IMG/VR virus record: IMGVR_UViG_3300028883_000125 | Span: 1-26,040 of that record | Direction: 5' to 3' (one strand) | Source: a virus | DNA: 26,040 bases | Shown: positions 4,606-19,631 of the stretch, piece after piece | Layout: the number at the start of each line of letters is the position of its first letter | Position numbering within the stretch: the first letter of the stretch is position 1 | The notes under the pieces: generated by a model | What the model was told of the DNA's origin: nothing | What the model saw: only the letters and a program-made list of their open reading frames with translations | Databases searched by the model: none | Translations under genes and position numbers: made by a program

Positions 4606-5217
4606 ATGCAGAATCCGACGTATCGGCGAACGCCGTTTGAACGGAAGCGGGATCGGGCGTTCGTTGCGAAACATCTTGCACTCCGAAAAACGATCTCGGA
4701 GATTACCGATCTCGTTAACCTCACATTCGGCTATGATCCGCCGCTCGTCTGGCAGACGATACAGAAAGACGTGAGGGCGATCGAGAAGGTTTATCACTCT
4801 GAGACGTTGATCGATTACGAAGCGTATCGGAAGCAGGAAGAAGCCCGGTATGTCGCGATTGAAACAGAAGCCCTTGAGCAATGGGAGCTTTCCAAGCGTG
4901 ACCGAACGACGGAATCTCAGAAGATCAAGGGCAAAGCGGCGAAGGGATCGGAATCGGTCGACAAGGTGAACGAGGTCGAAAAGTCGAAGACCGTCGAACG
5001 CCGGGAAGGAGATCCTCAGTTCCTTCGCCTAGCCCTCGATGCCGTCGATCGGCGAATAAAGCTCATGGGCGTATCGTCGCCAGTTCGACACGAGATCACG
5101 GGGAAGGGCGGGGCTCCGCTTGTTGATTCGCTCCCGGATATGACGAGCCTTCCAGACGATCAACTCATAAAGATTATCGAGACGTATGAGAACGCAAAGC
5201 GCAAGCAGGATAAGTAG
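4606..5217 (+). CDS. terS: Terminase small subunit
   Basis: A 203-residue protein directly before the large terminase, the usual place for the small subunit that recognises phage DNA and starts packaging. Residues about 27-62 (KTISEITDLVNLTFGYDPPL onward) form a probable helix-turn-helix region. The middle (about 70-135) is a charged, helical, likely coiled-coil section for ring assembly, and the C-terminus has a short GKGG loop and LPDDQLIKIIETYENA, often the part that contacts the large subunit. The ATG at 4606 sits behind GGGAG at 4595-4599; a GTG at 4594 in the same frame is less suitable. It overlaps the large-subunit gene by 32 bases. Confidence 0.8.
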   Translation: MQNPTYRRTPFERKRDRAFVAKHLALRKTISEITDLVNLTFGYDPPLVWQTIQKDVRAIEKVYHSETLIDYEAYRKQEEARYVAIETEALEQWELSKRDRTTESQKIKGKAAKGSESVDKVNEVEKSKTVERREGDPQFLRLALDAVDRRIKLMGVSSPVRHEITGKGGAPLVDSLPDMTSLPDDQLIKIIETYENAKRKQDK

Positions 5218-6685
5218 AGCCTCATCGATATACGAATCTGCCCGCCGGGAACTTGCCCGGCGTTCGTTGCTTGCGTTTACTGAGTACACTTTTCCGGGTT
5301 ATCAAGTCGGATGGGTTCATCGGGATATATGCCGCCGCCTTGATCGGTTCCTTGCCGACGTACAAGCCGGGCGATCTCCTCGTCTGGCTTTATTCATGCC
5401 TCCGCGACACGGGAAAAGCGAACTCGCTTCCCGCCGGTTCCCGGCGTTCGCCCTCGGGCAAGACCCAGACCTTCAGATCATTCTCACGTCGTACGGGGCG
5501 GATCTAGCAACGCTCATGAACGGCGATATTACCTCGATAATCGATTCTGATCTTTATGGGTCGATCTTCCCGAATACGATTCTCGGCGGCAAGGGGTCGA
5601 CGAAAAAAAAGCGGGAAGACTTTATTCAAACAGTTGGACACTCTGGGCAAGTGAAAGCGGCGGGCGTCGGCGGATCGATCACGGGCATCGGGGCAAACAT
5701 CTTCATTATTGACGACCCGGTTAAGAATATGGAAGAAGCCGATTCTCCGACGTACCGGGAAAAAACGTGGGACTGGTATCGATCAACGGCCCGGACCCGT
5801 CTTCAGCCGGGAGGCGGCGTTCTCCTGATTCAAACGCGATGGAACGAAGACGACCTCGGCGGGAGATTGCTTGAAGACGGGGAGAACACTTGGGAGATTG
5901 CAAGATATCCAGCGATCTCCGAACCAGACGATCAGGAACCCGGTTCTCCTGCATGGAAGAAGCGCCTTCAGGTTGACAAAGAGAATCGTGATATCGGAGA
6001 TCCGCTTCATCCGGAACGGTTCAGCAAGGAAGAGCTTGAACAGACGAAGCGCGAAGTCGGTTCCCGGGTCTGGTGTTCACTCTATCAACAGGATCCTCGA
6101 GCCCGGGAAGGCGGTCTTTTCCGTCGCGAGTGGTTCGATATCGTCGAAAAGATTCCGCTCACCAAAGGATTGCGAACGGTTCGATATTGGGACCGAGCCG
6201 GGACCGATCCGAAAACAGAGGGCGGCGATCCTGCTTTTACAACCGGCGTGAAGCTTACTTATGATTCCGCCTCGGGAATCTTTTATATTGAGGATATCCG
6301 CCGGTTCCAAAAAAGACCTCGTGGCGTACGAGACGCGATCCGGGCGACGGCATCTCAAGACGGTGCCTCTGTTCATATTGGCATCGAACAGGAACCCGGA
6401 TCTTCCGGGAAGGAATCGATCGAGATAATGATCTCCGAACTTGCCGGGTATGTTGTTCGGGCGGATCGCCCGACGGGATCGAAGGAGACCCGGGCGGAGC
6501 CGGTTTCCGCTCAAGCGGAGATCAGGAATATCAAGCTTCTTAGAGGATCGTGGAATCGGGCGTTCCTCGATGAGGCGGAGGGATTCGGGGCGGGCGGAAA
6601 ATACAAGGATCAGGCCGACGCCTTATCTGGAGCTTTTGCGATGTTAGTCGGGTCAAAATATGATATCTACCGGCTCATTCATTAG
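5186..6685 (+). CDS. terL: Terminase large subunit
   Basis: A 499-residue DNA-packaging motor with both enzymatic halves visible. The N-terminal ATPase has Walker A MPPRHGKS (71-78), Walker B IFIIDD (172-177) and a probable coupling motif QTRWNEDD (about 216-223). The C-terminal RNase H-like nuclease has YWDRAG with D336, IGIEQEPG with E401, and DQADALSG with an acidic residue at 475 or 478, giving the expected metal-binding triad. The length is normal for the family. It starts inside the end of the small-subunit gene, indicating coupled translation. It cuts concatemers and pumps DNA into the prohead through the portal encoded next. Confidence 0.95.
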   Translation: MRTQSASRISRASSIYESARRELARRSLLAFTEYTFPGYQVGWVHRDICRRLDRFLADVQAGRSPRLALFMPPRHGKSELASRRFPAFALGQDPDLQIILTSYGADLATLMNGDITSIIDSDLYGSIFPNTILGGKGSTKKKREDFIQTVGHSGQVKAAGVGGSITGIGANIFIIDDPVKNMEEADSPTYREKTWDWYRSTARTRLQPGGGVLLIQTRWNEDDLGGRLLEDGENTWEIARYPAISEPDDQEPGSPAWKKRLQVDKENRDIGDPLHPERFSKEELEQTKREVGSRVWCSLYQQDPRAREGGLFRREWFDIVEKIPLTKGLRTVRYWDRAGTDPKTEGGDPAFTTGVKLTYDSASGIFYIEDIRRFQKRPRGVRDAIRATASQDGASVHIGIEQEPGSSGKESIEIMISELAGYVVRADRPTGSKETRAEPVSAQAEIRNIKLLRGSWNRAFLDEAEGFGAGGKYKDQADALSGAFAMLVGSKYDIYRLIH

Positions 6686-6694
6686 GAGAACGAT

Positions 6695-8158
6695 ATGAAA
6701 GAATCAACGGCTCCCTCGGTTCGCGGCATGAAGACCGACGAGATCAACGAATACGCCTCCGCCTTCCGGCGTTACGATTCATGGGCGAATGTGTTTACCG
6801 GGCTCGGCATGGAGGGACGGGATAAACGACTCTCGACGAAGTATACAACGCCGACGATTCTCGATGAACAACAGTTGATCGACTTGTATCGAGGAGACGG
6901 TCTCGGTCGGCGAATCGTTACCGTTCCCGCCGACGAAATGACTCGGGAGGGGTTTAAGGTAAACGGCGATCCGGAAGGGGTGATCGTAGAGTATCTCGAA
7001 GATCAGGGATTCCATATTGAAGTAAACCGGCTAATTCGATGGGCGAAGCTTTTCGGAGGGGCGATCGGCGTGATCCTCGTCGACGACTCGTCTTCAGATC
7101 TTGCACTTCCCCTCAACGAGGGAACCGTTCGATCATTGCAGGGAATGAAGGTCTTCAGCCGGTTCCGATGCCCTATCAATCCGACCTCGTTGTATAAAGA
7201 CCCGATGAACCCGAAGTTCCTCACTCCTGAATATTACGAAGTCACCCCGATACAGGGATCTCCGTTCCGCGTTCACGAATCTCGGGTTGTCCGTCTCGAT
7301 TCCGTCGACGTCCCGGACCGGGCTTTGCTGGCAAATCAAGGCTGGGGCGATTCTGATCTTCAAGGAGCGTACGAACGACTCCGGGCGATGGGTACGGCAT
7401 ACGCCGCGACCGAACTGATTATCGAGGACTTCGCTCAAGCCGTTATGAGGATCAAGGATCTCGGAACCTTGATCGCTTCCGACGAGGGGTATCAAGCCCT
7501 TCTCCGCCGCCTCAATCTGATCGATATGAGTCGGCATATTGCGAATACTGCAATCCTCGACGTTGATGAGGAGTATTCGAAACACTCGACAAGTGTTACC
7601 GGGCTCCCGGATCTTCTCGACCGCTTCGTTCGAGGCCTAGCGGCGTCTTGTAATCCATCGATACCGGTTACTCTTCTCATGGGACAAGCTCCGGCGGGAT
7701 TGAACGCAACCGGCGACTCCGATGTTCGGAATTGGTACGACTCAATTCGCCGCTTGCAGTATTCATGGCTTCTCCCGGTCTGGAAGCGCCTTGTTCACCT
7801 TGCCTATATATCCAAAGACGGACCGTACTCCGGGACCGAAGAGGATTCGTGGAAGATCGAATTCAATCGGCTATGGCAACTCACGGAAAAAGAAGAAGCC
7901 GACGTTCGGAAAACAATCGCTGAGACGGATAAGATTTATATCGATACCGGCGTCGTTGATCCCGAAGAGGTCGCGGTTTCCCGGTTCGCCGGTTCAGAGT
8001 TCAATATGGATATCGAACTTGCCGAAGGTTCAGACACGCTTGAAGGGCGTCTCGGTCGTGAAGGGCAAGAGTCACCCGAAGATGTCGAGGAGCGGGTTCG
8101 TATGCAGGTTGAGGCAGAATACGCCGCGAAAGAACAAGTTCAACCCGGGGCGAAGTAA
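6695..8158 (+). CDS. Portal protein (DUF1073-like)
   Basis: A 487-residue protein with AGGAGAAC at good spacing before the ATG. Several traits match the DUF1073/Gp6-like portal family: SWANVFTGLGMEGRDKR near the start, the core RIVTVPADEMTREGFKV, GGAIGVILVDD, and LMGQAPAGLNATGDSDVRNW (about residues 326-345), a hallmark of the family. The C-terminal 60 residues are acidic and helical. The portal forms the ring at one vertex through which DNA enters and leaves and on which the tail assembles. It lies right after the large terminase and its stop shares a base with the next start, the common head-gene order. Confidence 0.9.
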   Translation: MKESTAPSVRGMKTDEINEYASAFRRYDSWANVFTGLGMEGRDKRLSTKYTTPTILDEQQLIDLYRGDGLGRRIVTVPADEMTREGFKVNGDPEGVIVEYLEDQGFHIEVNRLIRWAKLFGGAIGVILVDDSSSDLALPLNEGTVRSLQGMKVFSRFRCPINPTSLYKDPMNPKFLTPEYYEVTPIQGSPFRVHESRVVRLDSVDVPDRALLANQGWGDSDLQGAYERLRAMGTAYAATELIIEDFAQAVMRIKDLGTLIASDEGYQALLRRLNLIDMSRHIANTAILDVDEEYSKHSTSVTGLPDLLDRFVRGLAASCNPSIPVTLLMGQAPAGLNATGDSDVRNWYDSIRRLQYSWLLPVWKRLVHLAYISKDGPYSGTEEDSWKIEFNRLWQLTEKEEADVRKTIAETDKIYIDTGVVDPEEVAVSRFAGSEFNMDIELAEGSDTLEGRLGREGQESPEDVEERVRMQVEAEYAAKEQVQPGAK

Positions 8159-9108
8159 TGGATTCCGTCGAGATTCAAATCCGGAAGCGGTATATCAAGG
8201 CGATGAGAGCGGCGAATAACGATCGCCGTCGTCGCCCGCCTCGCCCTCCGAAGTGGCTTCCGCCGAAAAAGCTTGAGCGTGAATATTCCCTCACTCTCGT
8301 TCGAGTCTTTGTGAAGTCGATCGAGGAAGCGGTTGAGAAGTTCCTGATCCCGGCTCTTCCCTCGCTTATCCCGGACGTGAACCGGGATCGATCCGACGCC
8401 TTCCCGCAAACAATCGATGAGCTGTTCGCAATGATCCACCGGTATACTGGCGATGAGTTCTCGCTTGAGGATATGCAGTCGATCTCCCGGGATATGGCAA
8501 ACAAGGTCTCAATATGGAACAATGCTCAATGGCAAAAGATACTCCGGTCTGTTCTGGGCGTCGATCTGTTCTTTGACGACCCGGCCCTCCGTCTGGCGAC
8601 ACAATCGTTCGTCTCAGAGAATGTATCGCTTATCAAATCGATCAGGAATCAGTCTCTCGACCGTATCGAATCCCGGGTATACGCCGGGATCAGACAAGGG
8701 GATCGGTGGGAGGGCGTTGCAAAGACAATACGGGAAGAATACGGCGTTACGGAACGACGGGCTCGTCTGATCGGTCGCGATCAAGTCAATAAGCTCAACG
8801 GAAAGCTTACCCAGAACCGGCAAGAACAGATAGGCGTAAAGCGGTATAAATGGCGAACAGCAATCGACGAACGGGTTCGCGGGAATCCCGGCGGGCTTTA
8901 TCCGAAAGCAAAGCCCTCTCACTGGCATCGGGAAGGGAACGTTTACAATTGGAACGAACCGCCCAAAGGCGGGCATCCGGGTATACCGATTCAGTGTCGA
9001 TGTATTGCCGAGCCAGACCTCGATGATCTGTTCAAGGAAACGTCGCCGATTGAGGAAGAGGTTGAGAGCAATGAACGTCGCCAAACTACAAAGCGGAGAA
9101 AAGTATGA
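8158..9108 (+). CDS. Head morphogenesis protein (SPP1 gp7 / Mu F-like)
   Basis: A 316-residue protein following the portal. The N-terminus is very basic (NNDRRRRPPRPPKWLPPKK), fitting DNA or scaffold contact. Residues about 190-215 (VAKTIREEYGVTERRARLIG) and about 231-285 (WRTAIDERVR, then HWHREGNVYNW, then CRCIAEP) match the conserved C-terminal part of Mu F-like and SPP1 gp7-like proteins, including the His and paired Cys residues near the end. Family members join the portal and a few copies enter the prohead. A short basic tail (RRQTTKRRKV) ends it. ATGA overlap with the next gene. Confidence 0.85.
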   Translation: MDSVEIQIRKRYIKAMRAANNDRRRRPPRPPKWLPPKKLEREYSLTLVRVFVKSIEEAVEKFLIPALPSLIPDVNRDRSDAFPQTIDELFAMIHRYTGDEFSLEDMQSISRDMANKVSIWNNAQWQKILRSVLGVDLFFDDPALRLATQSFVSENVSLIKSIRNQSLDRIESRVYAGIRQGDRWEGVAKTIREEYGVTERRARLIGRDQVNKLNGKLTQNRQEQIGVKRYKWRTAIDERVRGNPGGLYPKAKPSHWHREGNVYNWNEPPKGGHPGIPIQCRCIAEPDLDDLFKETSPIEEEVESNERRQTTKRRKV

Positions 9109-9302
9109 GCCCGATCGAGATCGGTCACGATATCCTCGAACAGTTATCGAAGATCATTCTCGATCTGTTTGTATCGCGGTTTACCGGGTCTCTTACCCTT
9201 CGGATCGACTTCACTCAGGGAAGCCCGGCGAAGGCGACCGTACGGCAAGAGTACGCCTTGCAGACAAAAAAGAACTCCTCGAACGGATCGGGGAGTTCTT
9301 GA
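9105..9302 (+). CDS. Small hypothetical protein, 65 aa
   Basis: Coupled by ATGA to the head morphogenesis gene. Residues about 8-45 (HDILEQLSKIILDLFVSRF, then GSLTLRIDFTQGSPAKATVR) have a helix followed by a beta-hairpin, similar in outline to small DUF2292-like proteins, though this is only a pattern resemblance. The last 15 codons coincide with a hairpin that serves as a terminator for the opposite strand, and the product ends in a low-complexity KKNSSNGSGSS. The native C-terminus may therefore have been altered by insertion of the neighbouring antisense cassette. Confidence 0.6.
   Translation: MSPIEIGHDILEQLSKIILDLFVSRFTGSLTLRIDFTQGSPAKATVRQEYALQTKKNSSNGSGSS
9264..9301 (-). terminator. 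Rho-independent terminator of the antisense cassette
   Basis: Read on the - strand: a perfect 9-bp stem AAGAACTCC / GGAGTTCTT (arms 9292-9300 and 9270-9278) with a 13-base loop, running directly into a T tract (complement of A9266-A9271). On the + strand the hairpin is not followed by Ts, so it works only for - strand transcripts. It lies about 25 bases beyond the stop of the last - strand gene and inside the 3' end of the 65-aa + strand gene. Confidence 0.8.
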
Positions 9303-9315
9303 GGAGAGGAATACG

Positions 9316-9330
9316 ACGGTTATCGTTATT
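9316..9330 (+). repeat. 15-bp inverted repeat, left copy
   Basis: ACGGTTATCGTTATT on the + strand. The same 15 bases occur on the - strand at 11292-11278. The two copies sit at the two ends of the antisense gene pair; this copy overlaps the stop codon of the 68-aa gene. The match does not extend beyond 15 bases at either side, although a TTGAGGAGAG motif also appears near both copies in inverted orientation (9299-9308 and 11260-11251). Confidence 0.6.
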
Positions 9331-9532
9331 GAGTCTCTCCCGGCTTCGGATATGCCTTCCGATCAATCTCGATCAGATCAAAGCCCATTCGCTTCATCTC
9401 TTTGTTGATCTCCTTCACGCATTCGCGGCAAAGCGGTTTCGACCCGTCTTTATACGAGGTCTTCGGAACGTACAAGAGGCGGCAATGGAACGGATTACGG
9501 CATCGCCCGCAATGCTTTACTCGCGTAATCAT
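9326..9532 (-). CDS. Small zinc-finger protein, 68 aa
   Basis: Second gene of the antisense pair. Its ATG shares a base with the TAA stop of the 570-aa gene (TAATGA), so it is probably translated by re-initiation. Residues 8-11 (CGRC), Cys17 and residues 35-38 (CREC) form a probable zinc site, with FHCRLLYVPKTSYKDGSKPL between them; then comes a charged helix EINKEMKRMGFDLIEID. No family was recognised. The overlapping + strand frame has no start signal or motif, whereas this strand has a terminator just downstream and a promoter upstream of the pair. Confidence 0.75.
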   Translation of the reverse strand: MITRVKHCGRCRNPFHCRLLYVPKTSYKDGSKPLCRECVKEINKEMKRMGFDLIEIDRKAYPKPGETQ

Positions 9533-11244
9533 TAGAAAGCCCTCGACGGCTTGATCTCGACGACGCGGCGAAGTTCCCACTCGAGCCGACCCTTGATCTT
9601 TTCCTCGCGTTCAATACTTGCGATCTTGTCCGTTGCCTCTTCCCTTGTATTGAAGTGATTCCCGATACAGATATACCTTACTCCGTGTTTGTTGTGATCC
9701 ATCGCCGTCAATTCAAAGCGGATCGTATTGTTCTCGATATCCGCGATCACGCGATCTGCATCGCCGACCGGATGAGAGGGAACGTTCGTCGCTTCGCTAA
9801 AGGCGGAGGAGTGACGGTTCCGGGCGTGGAAGTAATAAGGGGCGGTATACATCTTCAGGTCGATGAATTTCCCGGGGATAAACGGCTCAAGGTCGCCGAT
9901 ATACATTACGCGGTCGGTGTACCTCTTATCGTCGATCGGGGAGCCGTCGTGATCCGTCGCCTTGTTGTACGGAGTGTTATGGAAGAACCGGACCGTTACC
10001 CGGTTCTTGTTCATGTACCCGGGGAATTCGACGATCTTCGCGTTCTGAAAGTACTTGCAGGGATCGCCCTTCACGCGAACCTGAGTCCCGATATAAATAT
10101 CGCCGACGAAGTTCGGGCGACCGGTCGTCTTCAGAATATCAACGGCCCGGGCAAACAGGGAAGCAAAGCGTTCCTCGATCATTACCGGGCGATCATTCTC
10201 GCGAACGAGTTCCGCTTTATCCATTGCCCGGAACTTTTCCGGAAATGAGAAGTCTTCAAGCTTCGACTTCGCGTCGATCCCTGCGAACAGGCCCAGACGC
10301 TCAGCGTCGGCGTCGAGTTCGTTGTAATGGTTCTCGATGAACTTCAAGACGGCGAATGAAGCCCTCTCGCTCTTCTGGTTGGCAACGTAACCGCGAAGCT
10401 TGTACGCGTGAGTGAATGGGCCAGAATCTTCGAGAGCGATCCTGATCGACGCCAGAACAGAACTTTCAATATGCTTCGCGCCAAGAGACGCCGTGACGTA
10501 AATACCTTCCGAATCGGTCTCGATATCGAAGTCGCGAATATACTGAACGTCGAACATTACAAGCCCGCGTTCCTCGAGGAACTCAAGGCGATCGCAAATA
10601 TCGCTTTTGATCCGGTTGAAAGCCCGGATAAACCGATGTTCCTCGCGACTCGCTTCGCTTCCATCTTCGACCCGGGGCTTTCGGGAAACGACGACGATCG
10701 TAATGATATCGCGGTCGACCGGATCTTGAACGATCTCAACCCGGGACTCGCGAACCTGATATTTGCAGAGTGGGCAATAGTAGAACTTTTCGCCGGTCTT
10801 TGTTTGCGGAAAGTAGAATTGATCAGAAGAATCGATCTTTTCGGAATGTTGAAGGAGTCCCTTGTCGCAAGACGGGCAAATCAGGTTGTACCCGTCGGCG
10901 CTCTTCTGAACCTTGATCGGCTCGCCGGATTCGATCTCCGCTTTGCCCTTCGCCAGATCTTCAGTGATCTCGCCCGAACCCGGGGAGGGCTCGGGATCGT
11001 CGTCGATCAGGTAATATTTACCTCCAAAAGCCCACTCATTCGGATTCTCGGTATTGATAAAGTTCTCTGCATCCTCTCGTGAGTCAAATTTCTTCACAAG
11101 AAGCGTTGACCCGTCTTTGTGCCCATTCTGGATATAAACAGGAAATTTCCCATCGAAAGCCGGGGAAGAAATAATTTCCTTCTGGAATTGATAATCTCTG
11201 ACGAGGGTAGTCAGTTTGGCGGCTTTTTCACTTGTGCTCTTCAT
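9532..11244 (-). CDS. Unknown 570-aa protein with a zinc ribbon
   Basis: The largest unassigned gene and one of only two on the - strand. The ATG follows GAGGAGAGAGAACA, a strong ribosome-binding site, and a sigma70-like promoter. Residues 1-80 look like a small alpha/beta domain (FPVYIQNGHKDGSTLLVKKF, then DSREDAENFI). After an acidic linker, CPSC (123-126) and CPLC (157-160) make a four-Cys zinc ribbon. Residues 170-300 contain beta-strands and helices (IITIVVVSRKPRV, then FIRAFNRIKSDICDRLEFLE), and the C-terminal half has further beta-rich sequence (IYIGTQVRVKGD, YICIGNHFNTREEA). No catalytic motif, signal peptide or membrane segment is visible. Codon use matches the surrounding phage genes. 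Its isolation, orientation and own signals suggest an accessory (moron) gene, perhaps expressed in lysogeny; function unknown. Confidence 0.85.
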   Translation of the reverse strand: MKSTSEKAAKLTTLVRDYQFQKEIISSPAFDGKFPVYIQNGHKDGSTLLVKKFDSREDAENFINTENPNEWAFGGKYYLIDDDPEPSPGSGEITEDLAKGKAEIESGEPIKVQKSADGYNLICPSCDKGLLQHSEKIDSSDQFYFPQTKTGEKFYYCPLCKYQVRESRVEIVQDPVDRDIITIVVVSRKPRVEDGSEASREEHRFIRAFNRIKSDICDRLEFLEERGLVMFDVQYIRDFDIETDSEGIYVTASLGAKHIESSVLASIRIALEDSGPFTHAYKLRGYVANQKSERASFAVLKFIENHYNELDADAERLGLFAGIDAKSKLEDFSFPEKFRAMDKAELVRENDRPVMIEERFASLFARAVDILKTTGRPNFVGDIYIGTQVRVKGDPCKYFQNAKIVEFPGYMNKNRVTVRFFHNTPYNKATDHDGSPIDDKRYTDRVMYIGDLEPFIPGKFIDLKMYTAPYYFHARNRHSSAFSEATNVPSHPVGDADRVIADIENNTIRFELTAMDHNKHGVRYICIGNHFNTREEATDKIASIEREEKIKGRLEWELRRVVEIKPSRAF

Positions 11245-11277
11245 TGTTCTCTCTCCTCAATGGTTGTAAAAGAATTG

Positions 11278-11292
11278 AATAACGATAACCGT
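11278..11292 (-). repeat. 15-bp inverted repeat, right copy
   Basis: The partner of the copy at 9316-9330, in opposite orientation. It coincides with the predicted transcription start of the antisense pair and overlaps an imperfect palindrome TAACG-N5-CGTTA at 11280-11294. It may therefore be both a cassette boundary and part of an operator. Confidence 0.6.
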
Positions 11293-11299
11293 TACAAGG

Positions 11300-11328
11300 A
11301 ATATAGTATACTGAAAGTTCAGTGTCAA
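11300..11328 (-). promoter_or_regulatory. Sigma70-like promoter with operator-like palindrome
   Basis: On the - strand a perfect -35 box TTGACA (11328-11323), a 17-base spacer and a -10 box TATATT (11305-11300) predict a start near 11293, about 49 bases before the 570-aa gene. The spacer is almost filled by a perfect palindrome, ACTGAA-AG-TTCAGT (11310-11323), placed where a bound repressor would block RNA polymerase. A second dyad, TAACG-N5-CGTTA (11280-11294), lies at the start site. Confidence 0.7.
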
Positions 11329-11362
11329 GCAAAAAGTGAATAATCAAAGGATATTAAGGCTC

Positions 11363-11392
11363 TTGACTCCTCTGGCTCTGGGAGCTTATCTT
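11363..11392 (+). promoter_or_regulatory. Candidate + strand promoter
   Basis: TTGACT (11363-11368), an 18-base spacer, then TATCTT (11387-11392). The -35 is good and the -10 weak. It diverges from the - strand promoter and would start a transcript near 11399 that runs into the hairpin at 11440-11483. Support is sequence resemblance only. Confidence 0.35.
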
Positions 11393-11439
11393 TTGGCAAC
11401 GGTTACGAACAGACCGGCGAAAAAAGCCGGGATCTGATC

Positions 11440-11483
11440 GCCCGGAAAGACACTCTTCGCGTGGGGTCTTCCCGGGCTTTTTT
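11440..11483 (+). terminator. Strong + strand rho-independent terminator
   Basis: GCCCGGAAAGAC (11440-11451) pairs with GTCTTCCCGGGC (11466-11477) with one mismatch in 12, then six Ts (11478-11483). It lies only 13 bases before the ATG of the next + strand gene, and no promoter fits between them. A smaller hairpin, CCGGC-GAAAAAA-GCCGG (11415-11431), precedes it. The pair could end a short RNA, or act as an attenuator that late transcription must pass. Confidence 0.7.
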
Positions 11484-11496
11484 ATTGGGGTAACGA

Positions 11497-11826
11497 ATGA
11501 TCCGGATCTTGAAGGCGATCGACAATATCATTACCAGAAAGCTTCGTCGGTCCCGGTTCATTGTTGAGGGGTTATGTGAGAACTCTTGGGTCTGGGCTCA
11601 TGGACTTCGCGGGGCGGTTCTGGCGATTCTGCTTACCCGGGGATTCGATATTTCTCGGAACGTTGCGTTCCTGATCGTTGTCGCGGTTTCAATCTTCTGG
11701 GAATATCTCGAATCGAAGATGAACGATCAGCAAGTCGTATACGGCAATCTCGCCCGGGCAAGGAATGACGCCCTCGGCGATATCCTTTATGAGTCGGCGA
11801 TCGCCGGTCTTGTTCTGTTCTTGTGA
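11497..11826 (+). CDS. Small integral membrane protein, 109 aa
   Basis: The ATG follows TGGGG at suitable spacing just after the terminator hairpin. Residues about 36-50 (AHGLRGAVLAILLTR) and 56-70 (VAFLIVVAVSIFWEY) are hydrophobic segments, and the C-terminus (YESAIAGLVLFL) is a third. The pattern FWEYLE, then NDALGDILYES recalls the conserved Glu and Asp positions of VanZ- or DUF2238-like membrane proteins, but the similarity is loose. A position among head genes is unusual for a lysis gene; it might be a holin-like or superinfection-exclusion protein. It lies 9 bases before the protease gene. Confidence 0.7.
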   Translation: MIRILKAIDNIITRKLRRSRFIVEGLCENSWVWAHGLRGAVLAILLTRGFDISRNVAFLIVVAVSIFWEYLESKMNDQQVVYGNLARARNDALGDILYESAIAGLVLFL

Positions 11827-11835
11827 GAGGCGATA

Positions 11836-13053
11836 ATGGCGAAAAGAATTGATAGGGTCGAGATCCGGGAAGACTTCGTTACTTATTCGAACGAAGGCTT
11901 CATTCGGTCGCTCGCCGCCGTTACAAGAACCGGCGTCTTCGTTTATCAGAACCCGGACGGAACCCTCCGCCGGGAGCTTCGGCACCCAGACGACGTATTC
12001 CTCGCAGAATCCCTCAAAACCCTTAAAATGATTCCGGTAACGAATGAACATCCCACCGAACTGGTTACGGCTGAGAACGCGAAAGCGTTGTCGATCGGGT
12101 CGACTGGCGAAACAGTTCGACCGGACGGGAAGCTTGTTCTTGCTCCGGTAATGATTACCGATATTGCAGCAATCAAAGAGATCGAACGCGGAAAGCGCGA
12201 GTTCTCTTGTGGATATGAGGTCGACCTTGTTGAGGAAGACGGGCTTTACGGAAACGAGCAATACGATTACCGTCAAACAAATATCCGATACAATCACTTA
12301 GCCCTCGTGCAGGCGGGGCGAGCCGGTCGAGATGTTCGGCTCAAGATGGACTCAGACGACGGAATTCTTGTAACGGCGGCGCACGCCGAAACCATAAACG
12401 GAGGAGCACCTCTCATGACAATGAGAAAAGTGACTCTCGACGGCATCGAATACGACGCCGCTCACGAGGTCGCGAACGCTCTTCGGAAGGCAGAAGAACG
12501 AGCCGATAACGCCGAAGCAAAGCTCAAAGGCTTTGTAGAGGTAAAGCTCGACGGCGGAGTCGTCGTTCTCGCCGAACCGAAAGCAATTGAAGCTCTTGAT
12601 CGTGCCCGGGCAGACGCCGACGCAAGTCGCGCTGAACTGGAAAAGATCAAGAACGTCGATCGCTCCGACGAGATTCAGAAGGCGGTTAAAGAGCGCGTTC
12701 GCGTTCTCGATTTCGGGAAGTCAACCTTGCCGAAAGAAACCGTCGCGAATCTCGACTCGATGAGCGATATCGATATTCAGAAGGCTGTGATCCTCGATCA
12801 GGCGGATAAAGCCGATCGGGACACACTCCAGCAAAAGCTCGATGCCGCGTCTGAAACGTACATTCGGGCTCGCTTCGATCAGGTCGTCGAGAATCTCCCG
12901 AAACGGGATTCCCGGGCGATCGCCGGGCAGCGGGAAAAAGTGATTCCTGATCCTGCCTCCCGGATCGATAACGACGAGAAGTCAGCGGAGGCTCGTCGTG
13001 ACTCGATGGAACAGAAGGTGAAAGACCGCTACAAGAATCTCGGGAAGGAGTAA
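11836..13053 (+). CDS. Prohead protease with scaffold domain (DUF2213-like)
   Basis: A 405-residue maturation protease fused to scaffold. The N-terminal part (about 1-190) resembles DUF2213: a probable catalytic His in TNEHPTELV (H72), Ser in EFSCGYEVDL (S124) and a second His in RYNHLALV (H154), the His-Ser-His arrangement expected of herpes-type prohead proteases. The C-terminal part (about 200-405) is a charged coiled-coil scaffold (ALRKAEERADNAEAKLKGF, ARADADASRAELEKIK). The enzyme cleaves scaffold and capsid proteins during maturation. An internal start with its own ribosome-binding site (see 12415) probably makes scaffold alone. It sits directly before the decoration and capsid genes. 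Confidence 0.85.
   Translation: MAKRIDRVEIREDFVTYSNEGFIRSLAAVTRTGVFVYQNPDGTLRRELRHPDDVFLAESLKTLKMIPVTNEHPTELVTAENAKALSIGSTGETVRPDGKLVLAPVMITDIAAIKEIERGKREFSCGYEVDLVEEDGLYGNEQYDYRQTNIRYNHLALVQAGRAGRDVRLKMDSDDGILVTAAHAETINGGAPLMTMRKVTLDGIEYDAAHEVANALRKAEERADNAEAKLKGFVEVKLDGGVVVLAEPKAIEALDRARADADASRAELEKIKNVDRSDEIQKAVKERVRVLDFGKSTLPKETVANLDSMSDIDIQKAVILDQADKADRDTLQQKLDAASETYIRARFDQVVENLPKRDSRAIAGQREKVIPDPASRIDNDEKSAEARRDSMEQKVKDRYKNLGKE
12415..13053 (+). CDS. Nested scaffold protein (internal in-frame start)
   Basis: Within the protease gene, codon 194 is an ATG preceded by GAGGAG (12401-12406) eight bases upstream, as good a ribosome-binding site as any in the window. It would yield 212 residues (MTMRKVTLDGIEYDAAHEVA onward) comprising only the coiled-coil scaffold part, starting exactly at the boundary after the protease domain. 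Nested scaffolds of this type are known from lambda (Nu3 inside C) and Mu. Scaffold is needed in many copies and protease in few, so the arrangement makes sense. Inferred, not demonstrated. Confidence 0.6.
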   Translation: MTMRKVTLDGIEYDAAHEVANALRKAEERADNAEAKLKGFVEVKLDGGVVVLAEPKAIEALDRARADADASRAELEKIKNVDRSDEIQKAVKERVRVLDFGKSTLPKETVANLDSMSDIDIQKAVILDQADKADRDTLQQKLDAASETYIRARFDQVVENLPKRDSRAIAGQREKVIPDPASRIDNDEKSAEARRDSMEQKVKDRYKNLGKE

Positions 13054-17478: not shown

Positions 17479-17949
17479 ATGTCAACTCAGGAACAGCGGG
17501 CGGCAAGAAACGCAACGCCTTTTCAGAAGGGGCCGGTCTTTACCGGCGACTTCGACAGGCTCGGCGAGGTCGAACTTACGATATCGGGAACGACGGAAGT
17601 CTCCGGAGATATTCGATGGGACGGTCGAGATCTGAATGGGAATATCTTCGTAATCGTGGAATCGACTGAGGTTACTTCCGGACTTGCGTCGCTTCTCGTG
17701 CAAGAGCGACCGCTTTACCCGAAACAGAGCGGAACGATCGGTGTCGACGAAGCGGGCGATACTGAGATCGATCTGTTCACGGGTCTCGACCTCTCGACGC
17801 TTGGTTACTCATCATTCATGGATCTCACTTCCGAGGTCGGCTTGGCTTTTGATGCAAAGAAAGCCTTGTCGCCGTGGGGAATTCGATTCTACGCGACCGG
17901 AGTCGGCGGTGACGACGGGAAAGTTAAAATCACAGTTTACGGGAACTAA
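17479..17949 (+). CDS. Hypothetical structural protein, 156 aa
   Basis: Not recognised. The ATG lies 15 bases after the neck terminator, with GGGAGAGATAT upstream. The protein is acidic and beta-rich (VELTISGTTEVSGDIRWDG, then IFVIVESTEVTSG), and closes with WGIRFYATGVGGDDGKVKITV, which looks like a jelly-roll or Ig-like fold. No Cys or membrane segment. Its stop shares a base with the start of the LamG adhesin gene, so the two are probably made together. It may be a virion-surface or adaptor protein that carries the adhesin. Confidence 0.65.
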   Translation: MSTQEQRAARNATPFQKGPVFTGDFDRLGEVELTISGTTEVSGDIRWDGRDLNGNIFVIVESTEVTSGLASLLVQERPLYPKQSGTIGVDEAGDTEIDLFTGLDLSTLGYSSFMDLTSEVGLAFDAKKALSPWGIRFYATGVGGDDGKVKITVYGN

Positions 17950-19631
17950 TGAATCTCCTCTTCGAAAAGAAGAATAGGGTCTCCGGATTCGGGCATAAAG
18001 TCTGGGGAAGACCGGCGGGAGTAATATTGCCGGAAAAAGTCGCCTCGGCATACTGGATCGACTTTACCGAGCAAGCGTTTGATTCAATGCGCGGCTTGAG
18101 TGAAAGCGTTGATCTTTTCACGGAGGCGAGTTGCGAGACTGTTCCATCATTCGAAGGCGACGCAATATCTACAAACTGGACCGGGGAAACAGGGTTACTT
18201 GCGTCTCAAGCTGCTGTCACCAATGATAGTGATTATGCGCTTTCTTTCGTGAATAATACGACTGCTTTCAAACAGGTTGGACTCGATCTCGGCGCCTTTT
18301 TAACTGACGGAGATTACGCGTGGGTCGAGTTTGATGTCAGGCATAATGGATTAGGTTCCGATACATATTGCCAGATTGCTTTCAATACTTCCGCGTCTGG
18401 GTGGACAAGTACCGGAAGAACTATCAATATCTTAAAAACCCAGACAGATTGGGTAAGAGTTGCGCTTCTTTTCCCCTACGATGAGGCTGTCGACTGGCTT
18501 CGTTATATGAAAGTCGGCTACATGTCCGGGGCTGCCTACGATGGTGGGGGAATATTTATAGACAATATGCAGGTTAAGTCTATTGATAGCGCGGCGACAA
18601 GTCAACTTTTTGCAAACAACGACTTTGTGAACTGGTCTGGGTCATTCCCGAATGAAGTTCCGGATAATTGGGTATTAAACGGCACAGCCGACGCAAATAA
18701 TTATTTAACAGAAGACGCTCCGAGTATTTTAAGACTCGTTTCAAACGGCGGGCTCATTGGAACGTATCAGGATATAGGCGACCCTTCAAATCATTCCGTT
18801 TTGATCCTTTTAAACATAACGGACGCTACTGATCCGCCAGCAGTTTTAAATATTGGTGCGGGCGGATCTGAGTTCATTGAGTCTTTGGGAACAACCGGAA
18901 TCGTCTCGAATACGGGTTCTCCGCAAGGCGCAACCCTAAAGGATCGTTTGCGTATTAATCGAACTTCAGGCGAGACAACAGACATGAAGTTCGATTGGGG
19001 GAGAGCATACCGTCTATATACCGGGATTGACGATTATTCTCGTTTCGTTAATATCTACGATCGAATATCAGGAAATTCTTTCATTTATCAAAACAGTTCA
19101 TCGAAAAGACCCACATTCTTTCCGGGGCTCGGTGGCTATTTTGACGGAGTCGACGATATTGTCGACCGTGGACTCGGGAACGAGATTAATTGTAAAGGGA
19201 TTATTGTCGCCTTCAGGCCCGACTCCTTCACTCTCTCAAGCAGATTGTTTGCTGGTAAGGATGGGTCAACCGATGTTTTCGGCGTTGGAATTTATCTTTC
19301 TGCAAGTAAAATACAATGGTATATCGATTCTGCTTATCGCCAATCGGTAAACACCTTCGCTGCAAATACATGGTGTGTCGGACTTTTTTACGTGGACTCA
19401 AAAAATAATCACATTCTGAGAGTGAACGGCATCGAAGAAATAAATTACAATGCAACTCCGGCGGCAACAAGCACATTTAGAATGATTGGGAATCGCGTAT
19501 CTACTGCAACTTATTTTAAAGGATTTGTCGGGGATTTTTACCTTATTCCACCCAATACTCCCGATGGCTTGATTGAGTCTGTATACAAGTATTTTCTCGT
19601 AAGATCAAAGAATCGAGGCTTGATTACATGA
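17949..19631 (+). CDS. Adhesin-like protein with LamG-type lectin domain
   Basis: 560 residues. After a short N-terminal region (1-60), residues about 60-215 and 215-350 look like two carbohydrate-binding-type beta-sandwiches (EGDAISTNWTGETGLLASQA; FIDNMQVKSID as the closing strand of the first). Residues from about 395 (GGYFDGVDDIVDRGLGNEIN) to about 545 form a LamG/concanavalin-like domain, with AFRPDSFTLSSRLFAGKDGS and AANTWCVGLFYVDSKNNHIL. These folds bind sugars, so a receptor-binding or head/tail fibre role is likely. The gene is AT-richer than its neighbours from about 18.1 kb and sits between neck and sheath genes, not with the baseplate, suggesting acquisition. The substrate cannot be inferred. 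Confidence 0.75.
   Translation: MNLLFEKKNRVSGFGHKVWGRPAGVILPEKVASAYWIDFTEQAFDSMRGLSESVDLFTEASCETVPSFEGDAISTNWTGETGLLASQAAVTNDSDYALSFVNNTTAFKQVGLDLGAFLTDGDYAWVEFDVRHNGLGSDTYCQIAFNTSASGWTSTGRTINILKTQTDWVRVALLFPYDEAVDWLRYMKVGYMSGAAYDGGGIFIDNMQVKSIDSAATSQLFANNDFVNWSGSFPNEVPDNWVLNGTADANNYLTEDAPSILRLVSNGGLIGTYQDIGDPSNHSVLILLNITDATDPPAVLNIGAGGSEFIESLGTTGIVSNTGSPQGATLKDRLRINRTSGETTDMKFDWGRAYRLYTGIDDYSRFVNIYDRISGNSFIYQNSSSKRPTFFPGLGGYFDGVDDIVDRGLGNEINCKGIIVAFRPDSFTLSSRLFAGKDGSTDVFGVGIYLSASKIQWYIDSAYRQSVNTFAANTWCVGLFYVDSKNNHILRVNGIEEINYNATPAATSTFRMIGNRVSTATYFKGFVGDFYLIPPNTPDGLIESVYKYFLVRSKNRGLIT

Follow-up and report, generated by a model that had tools for sequence, protein, structure and literature searches.

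A probable antisense moron between the head genes of an uncultivated bacterial virus

The IMG/VR record IMGVR_UViG_3300028883_000125 is a 26,040-bp contig of an uncultivated bacterial virus, analysed here over its entire length (the window). Recognised within it are genes for terminase, portal (Phage_portal_3), a MuF-like head protein, a DUF2213 protease, a cement-like protein, and a tape measure. Between the MuF and protease genes lie two open reading frames (ORFs) on the minus strand, encoding proteins of 570 and 68 residues (ORF570 and ORF68). An earlier sequence-only reading had placed these two genes here as an exception among plus-strand genes; both were found where it had put them, and every gene with a family match indeed lies on the plus strand. 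The stop codon of ORF570 and the ATG of ORF68 overlap by one base (TAATG). Codon usage in ORF570 is phage-like; ORFs antisense to it score about equally, and thus the case for coding rests on 570 open codons together with the surrounding regulatory signals.

These signals delimit the pair closely. A sequence scan recovered each of the elements that the sequence-only reading had named, namely a consensus promoter, a ribosome-binding site, and a terminator with a T tract. The sigma-70-type promoter is the sole site in the window with at least 11 of 12 consensus matches, where 0.2 would be expected from shuffled sequence, and a Shine-Dalgarno sequence (GAGGAG) stands 5′ of the ORF570 ATG. Behind ORF68, a hairpin with arms at 9270–9282 and 9288–9300 is followed on the minus strand by six T residues and ranks second in stability among the terminator-like hairpins of the 26 kb, behind one on the plus strand. 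The best promoter and the second-best terminator of the window therefore bracket exactly ORF570 and ORF68. The pair's terminator is encoded by the last eleven codons (KKNSSNGSGSS) of orf65, the small gene that follows MuF. Relatives do not share this tail, their orf65 ending earlier or differing, and the terminator thus marks the left border of an insertion.

Relatives were gathered by aligning terminase, portal, capsid, and protease; 502 loci were fetched (labelled L below), and 217 distinct relatives carry both flanking genes, the best full-length matches being around 50% identical. The site is empty or filled differently in all 217. Neither gene occurs in any relative, and the pair is therefore not a set of core genes, which the sequence-only reading had named as the outcome that would speak against its proposal. 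Among the relatives nearest by portal and MuF identity, L169, L173, and L174/L333 present MuF, an orf65 homolog of 60–75 residues, a plus-strand promoter followed by a short transcribed region and a strong terminator, and then the protease, with nothing antisense at the junction. The window keeps the order of the pieces seen in these relatives, with the antisense pair added between orf65 and the plus-strand promoter unit and a further gene, tm109, between the plus-strand terminator and the protease.

The junction itself is variable. The distance between MuF and protease spans 0 to 7 kb among the 217 relatives: under 150 nucleotides (nt) in 93, 150–350 nt in 54, 350–600 nt in 25, and at least 600 nt in 45. 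Gaps of at least 1.5 kb are commonest here among five junctions compared, at 25/218 against 7/133 for terL-portal, 11/221 for portal-MuF, 1/225 for protease-capsid, and 12/150 for capsid and the next gene. The cargo includes a Vsr/MTES_1575-like nuclease, a GDSL-type hydrolase, an ankyrin protein, and many orphan genes. Among the 48 gaps of at least 500 nt, a simple heuristic marked 7 as dominated by minus-strand blocks with ribosome sites, and some of the 7 (e.g., L103) are doubtful. L159 carries one or more antisense genes unrelated to the pair, with a consensus promoter at 7312 and a hairpin terminator at 5127 at the MuF end, and L204 and L398, near copies of each other, carry an unrelated antisense ankyrin gene with consensus promoters at 5553 and 3485. 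A scan by the same rule, namely a minus-strand gene with a consensus promoter immediately upstream, yielded one case in around 460 kb at the four other junctions. Antisense morons thus appear, on small numbers, to recur at the MuF-protease site.

A moron is described as one or more genes that carry a promoter and a terminator of their own and have entered between genes that stand side by side in relatives (PMC4378225). The absence of the pair from relatives and the reuse of the site by other antisense cargo make a moron at a site of repeated insertion the best reading; we consider it likely that a self-contained two-gene antisense transcription unit (approximately 9264–11330) was acquired between orf65 and an ancestral plus-strand unit before the protease. 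The moron proposal of the sequence-only reading stands as regards layout, the promoter, terminator, and insertion between otherwise adjacent genes all fitting the published description. Several observations weigh against it. No integrase or repressor was recognised in the contig, and there is no sign of a temperate phage, the setting in which, according to the earlier reading, such gene sets are often expressed. The guanine-cytosine (GC) content of the pair is 0.52–0.54 and its codon score is near that of phage genes, a composition that is not foreign, whereas morons often differ from their neighbours; a deviant composition is usual, not required. The promoter and terminator are known as consensus matches only, and the pair has no homologs in the relatives.

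Host RNA polymerase would begin transcription of the pair at the pair's sigma-70-type promoter without depending on the late operon, and the genes could thereby be on when the head genes are off. The pair's terminator would limit antisense run-on into MuF. ORF570 is acidic overall (isoelectric point 5.7), lacks a transmembrane stretch, and carries a four-cysteine zinc ribbon, CPSC/CPLC, at 123–160 (C123/C126 and C157/C160), as well as a basic segment at 376–470; N-terminal, central, and C-terminal segments are also distinguished. ORF68 is basic (isoelectric point 9.5), with two CxxC pairs (C8/C11 and C35/C38), and the cysteine pairs reported earlier for both proteins are thus in place. Searches of the 502 loci (phmmer), phage records, Pfam, PHROGs, NCBIfam, PADLOC, and PDB sequences returned no convincing homolog of either protein. 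For ORF570, IMG/VR, GTDB contigs, 20 viral records, and plasmid records gave nothing convincing, and sets of 11, 377, and 398 whole genomes gave no convincing homolog; the earlier impression that it belongs to no recognisable family is confirmed by the library searches. Noteworthy profile matches, all of them weak, are confined to its zinc ribbon (phrog_2834, expect value (E) 2e-4), and a weak zinc-ribbon match in L247 (E 6e-4 for one genome, 12.6 bits) was treated as chance. ORF68 has a single tblastn match in phage records (E 0.3) and weak profile matches to PHROG 5558 (Lar-like, E 6.6e-4) and PHROG 2340 (endonuclease VII/HNH zinc knuckle, E 1.9e-4), both resting mainly on cysteine spacing; Lar and HNH models of Pfam and NCBIfam gave no match, with the Pfam search for Lar extending to E 1, and no HNH domain was recognised. 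PADLOC models of known anti-phage defence systems gave no match to the pair up to E 1.

Structure prediction added little. AlphaFold2 without an alignment gave a mean confidence (pLDDT) of 34 for ORF570, which is unusable; the C-terminal 91 residues modelled alone reached 55, with a beta-beta-beta-alpha arrangement for which Foldseek found nothing in the PDB below E 2. A likeness of this terminus to AP2 or integrase-arm domains (pattern YxxxGxFxTREEA) is therefore a tentative impression only. No catalytic domain was recognised in either protein. Our best guess is that ORF570 may be a binding effector with ORF68 as a small zinc-finger partner, nothing supporting a specific enzyme. With low confidence, ORF570 might be a zinc-ribbon multidomain protein that binds nucleic acid or protein, directed at the host or at competing phages rather than at the virion.

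The sequence-only reading had overlooked a perfect 15-bp inverted repeat, ACGGTTATCGTTATT, with one arm near each end of the predicted transcript. Such repeats arise by chance around 0.2 times per window of equal size and composition, and the protease gene contains another, longer one; only the position of the 15-bp repeat is therefore worthy of note. The dyad in its right arm could be an operator at which a repressor would damp expression of the pair, and AACGGTTACG, related to this dyad, lies at the predicted start of the plus-strand transcript. The 3′ end of the pair's mRNA could pair with its own 5′ end or Shine-Dalgarno region. Invertible-segment and transposon readings of the repeat were set aside because the arms enclose neither the promoter nor the terminator. 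This same arrangement argues against the pair as a small mobile element, whether an insertion sequence or a free-standing endonuclease gene, ended by the repeat, an explanation that would account for the arms at both transcript ends, for the AGGAATA just outside each (9307–9313 and 11297–11303), and for the weak resemblance of ORF68 to the zinc part of HNH/endonuclease VII proteins. No profile library searched revealed a transposase, recombinase, or endonuclease domain, however; the pair is single copy with no homolog in anything searched, the chance rate of such repeats is as given above, and the blocks in L159, L093, and L379 end without a perfect repeat of this kind. We regard a mobile element as quite improbable.

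Convergent transcription inside a head operon raises a different prospect, namely that the antisense transcript, or polymerase collision, acts in cis to tune the late operon between the packaging, portal, and MuF genes and the protease and capsid genes, with the proteins secondary. A strong plus-strand terminator right behind the pair and complementary stretches in the pair's 5′ and 3′ untranslated regions would suit such a role. Relatives share the operon order, yet all are without the pair, and it is thus not core control; its terminator would also stop most antisense run-on before MuF, and the long open frames would be left unexplained, so that cis action is improbable. The location within the structural region would suit a late or virion gene whose inversion is incidental, such as a minor structural or packaging factor, but no related head module holds a homolog, and the opposite strand and sigma-70-type promoter fit poorly; this explanation is very improbable indeed. 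Acquisition as a moron remains the preferred reading.

The plus-strand unit to the right of the insertion had likewise been overlooked. Its terminator (11440–11483, −21.3 kcal/mol) is the strongest in the window. Of 131 MuF-protease gaps of at least 120 nt, 40 contain a plus-strand terminator of −11 kcal/mol or stronger and 12 a minus-strand one, and promoter-plus-terminator pairs 45–140 nt apart number 26 versus 3. Five distant relatives (L124/L190, L249, L405, L248, and L130) have a common sequence just 5′ of the protease—TTGACA, GGYAC...AAxAAYGxGGCCGC, a hairpin, GCGG, and T6—and two of the five lie in contigs that are attributed, one each, to a genome of Bacteroidota (Rufibacter) and a metagenome-assembled genome of Alphaproteobacteria. 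Rfam gave no match; the unit may be a small RNA or leader attenuator. A wider and more doubtful possibility is that the MuF/orf65-protease junction is a dedicated operon boundary around this conserved short plus-strand transcript (promoter, 55–100 nt, and a terminator that immediately precedes the start of the protease, forming an undescribed small RNA or attenuator), at which antisense accessory genes dock, including ORF570/ORF68 with a new fold and an effector role.

Among neighbouring genes, orf65 has homologs at the equivalent position in 14 relatives; the family pattern is FTGxhxhxhxxxQGGI, and Pfam and PHROG gave no match. The tm109 gene is an accessory gene separate from the antisense pair. 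Elsewhere in the window, a plus-strand gene at 17949–19631 encodes a 560-residue protein without a family match and, with aberrant GC content (0.41–0.51) and codon usage, was probably acquired recently, while a ParB-like/DNA methyltransferase fusion-type gene, judged by reading the sequence, lies at 1061–2362 upstream of the terminase genes.

Table 1. Features of the window and of related loci at the MuF-protease junction
Feature	Source	Positions	Strand	Details
MuF-like head morphogenesis gene, upstream core gene	window	8158–9108	+	PF04233 2.1e-15; phrog_324 9.1e-68
orf65, small conserved gene directly 3′ of MuF, left neighbour of insertion	window	9105–9302	+	
Intrinsic terminator of the pair	window	9264–9300	−	AAGAACTCC...GGAGTTCTT + T6; 9-bp stem, −15.8 kcal/mol
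Left repeat arm, across ORF68 stop codon	window	9316–9330		
ORF68, basic zinc-finger protein, 68 residues	window	9326–9532	−	
ORF570, soluble orphan protein, 570 residues	window	9532–11244	−	
Right repeat arm, first bases of predicted transcript	window	11278–11292		dyad TAACG-N5-CGTTA
Sigma-70-type promoter of the pair	window	11300–11328	−	TTGACA-17-TATATT; 11/12 consensus matches; predicted start ~11293
Plus-strand unit, right neighbour of insertion	window	11363–11483	+	promoter TTGACT-18-TATCTT, ~85-nt RNA, hairpin + T6
tm109, orphan 109-residue protein with hydrophobic stretch	window	11497–11826	+	between plus-strand terminator and protease
Head maturation protease, DUF2213, downstream core gene	window	11836–13053	+	PF09979 4.6e-43; phrog_530 4.7e-86
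Vsr/MTES_1575-like nuclease	L097	7131–8021		site cargo
GDSL-type hydrolase	L256	12137–13615		site cargo
Ankyrin protein	L204	4117–5485		site cargo; antisense promoter
Large orphan	L255	12125–14221		site cargo
Large orphan	L207	12418–19355		site cargo
Plus-strand unit	L124	5464–5560	+	promoter, 55–100-nt RNA, terminator
Plus-strand unit	L249	12348–12443	+	as above
Plus-strand unit	L405	5408–5532	+	as above
Plus-strand unit	L248	12590–12690	+	as above
Plus-strand unit	L130	8279–8400	+	as above
Plus-strand unit	L173	12395–12540	+	as above
Plus-strand unit	L174	8655–8810	+	as above
Plus-strand unit	L169	8420–8540	+	as above

The pair resembles the morons of lambdoid and Mu-like phages (PMC4378225) in its bracketing by a promoter and terminator, its insertion between adjacent genes, its absence from relatives, and the reuse of its site for other cargo; it differs in comprising two genes rather than one, in lying on the minus strand, in a composition that is not clearly foreign, and in being predicted from sequence. 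STMMW_20121 of the Salmonella prophage ST64B (PMC7067206), compared by description, shares with the pair its accessory nature, its orientation antisense to lytic genes, and the possession of a separate promoter; that gene, however, belongs to a known prophage and is backed by RNA sequencing evidence, whereas transcription of the pair is predicted. The BstA phage-defence locus of prophage BTP1 (PMC8585504) likewise encodes an accessory protein, sits at a mosaic hotspot, and has a Rho-independent terminator, though no similarity of sequence or site was recognised, and Lar-like and endonuclease VII/HNH zinc-knuckle proteins share with ORF68 its small size and two CxxC pairs.

The MuF-protease junction of these widespread environmental phages emerges as a defined and reusable cargo site with precise boundaries. 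Should the plus-strand unit prove to be a real RNA, it would control expression of the capsid protease and represent an element absent from Rfam, and ORF570 is a reasonable candidate for an effector directed at the host or at other phages.
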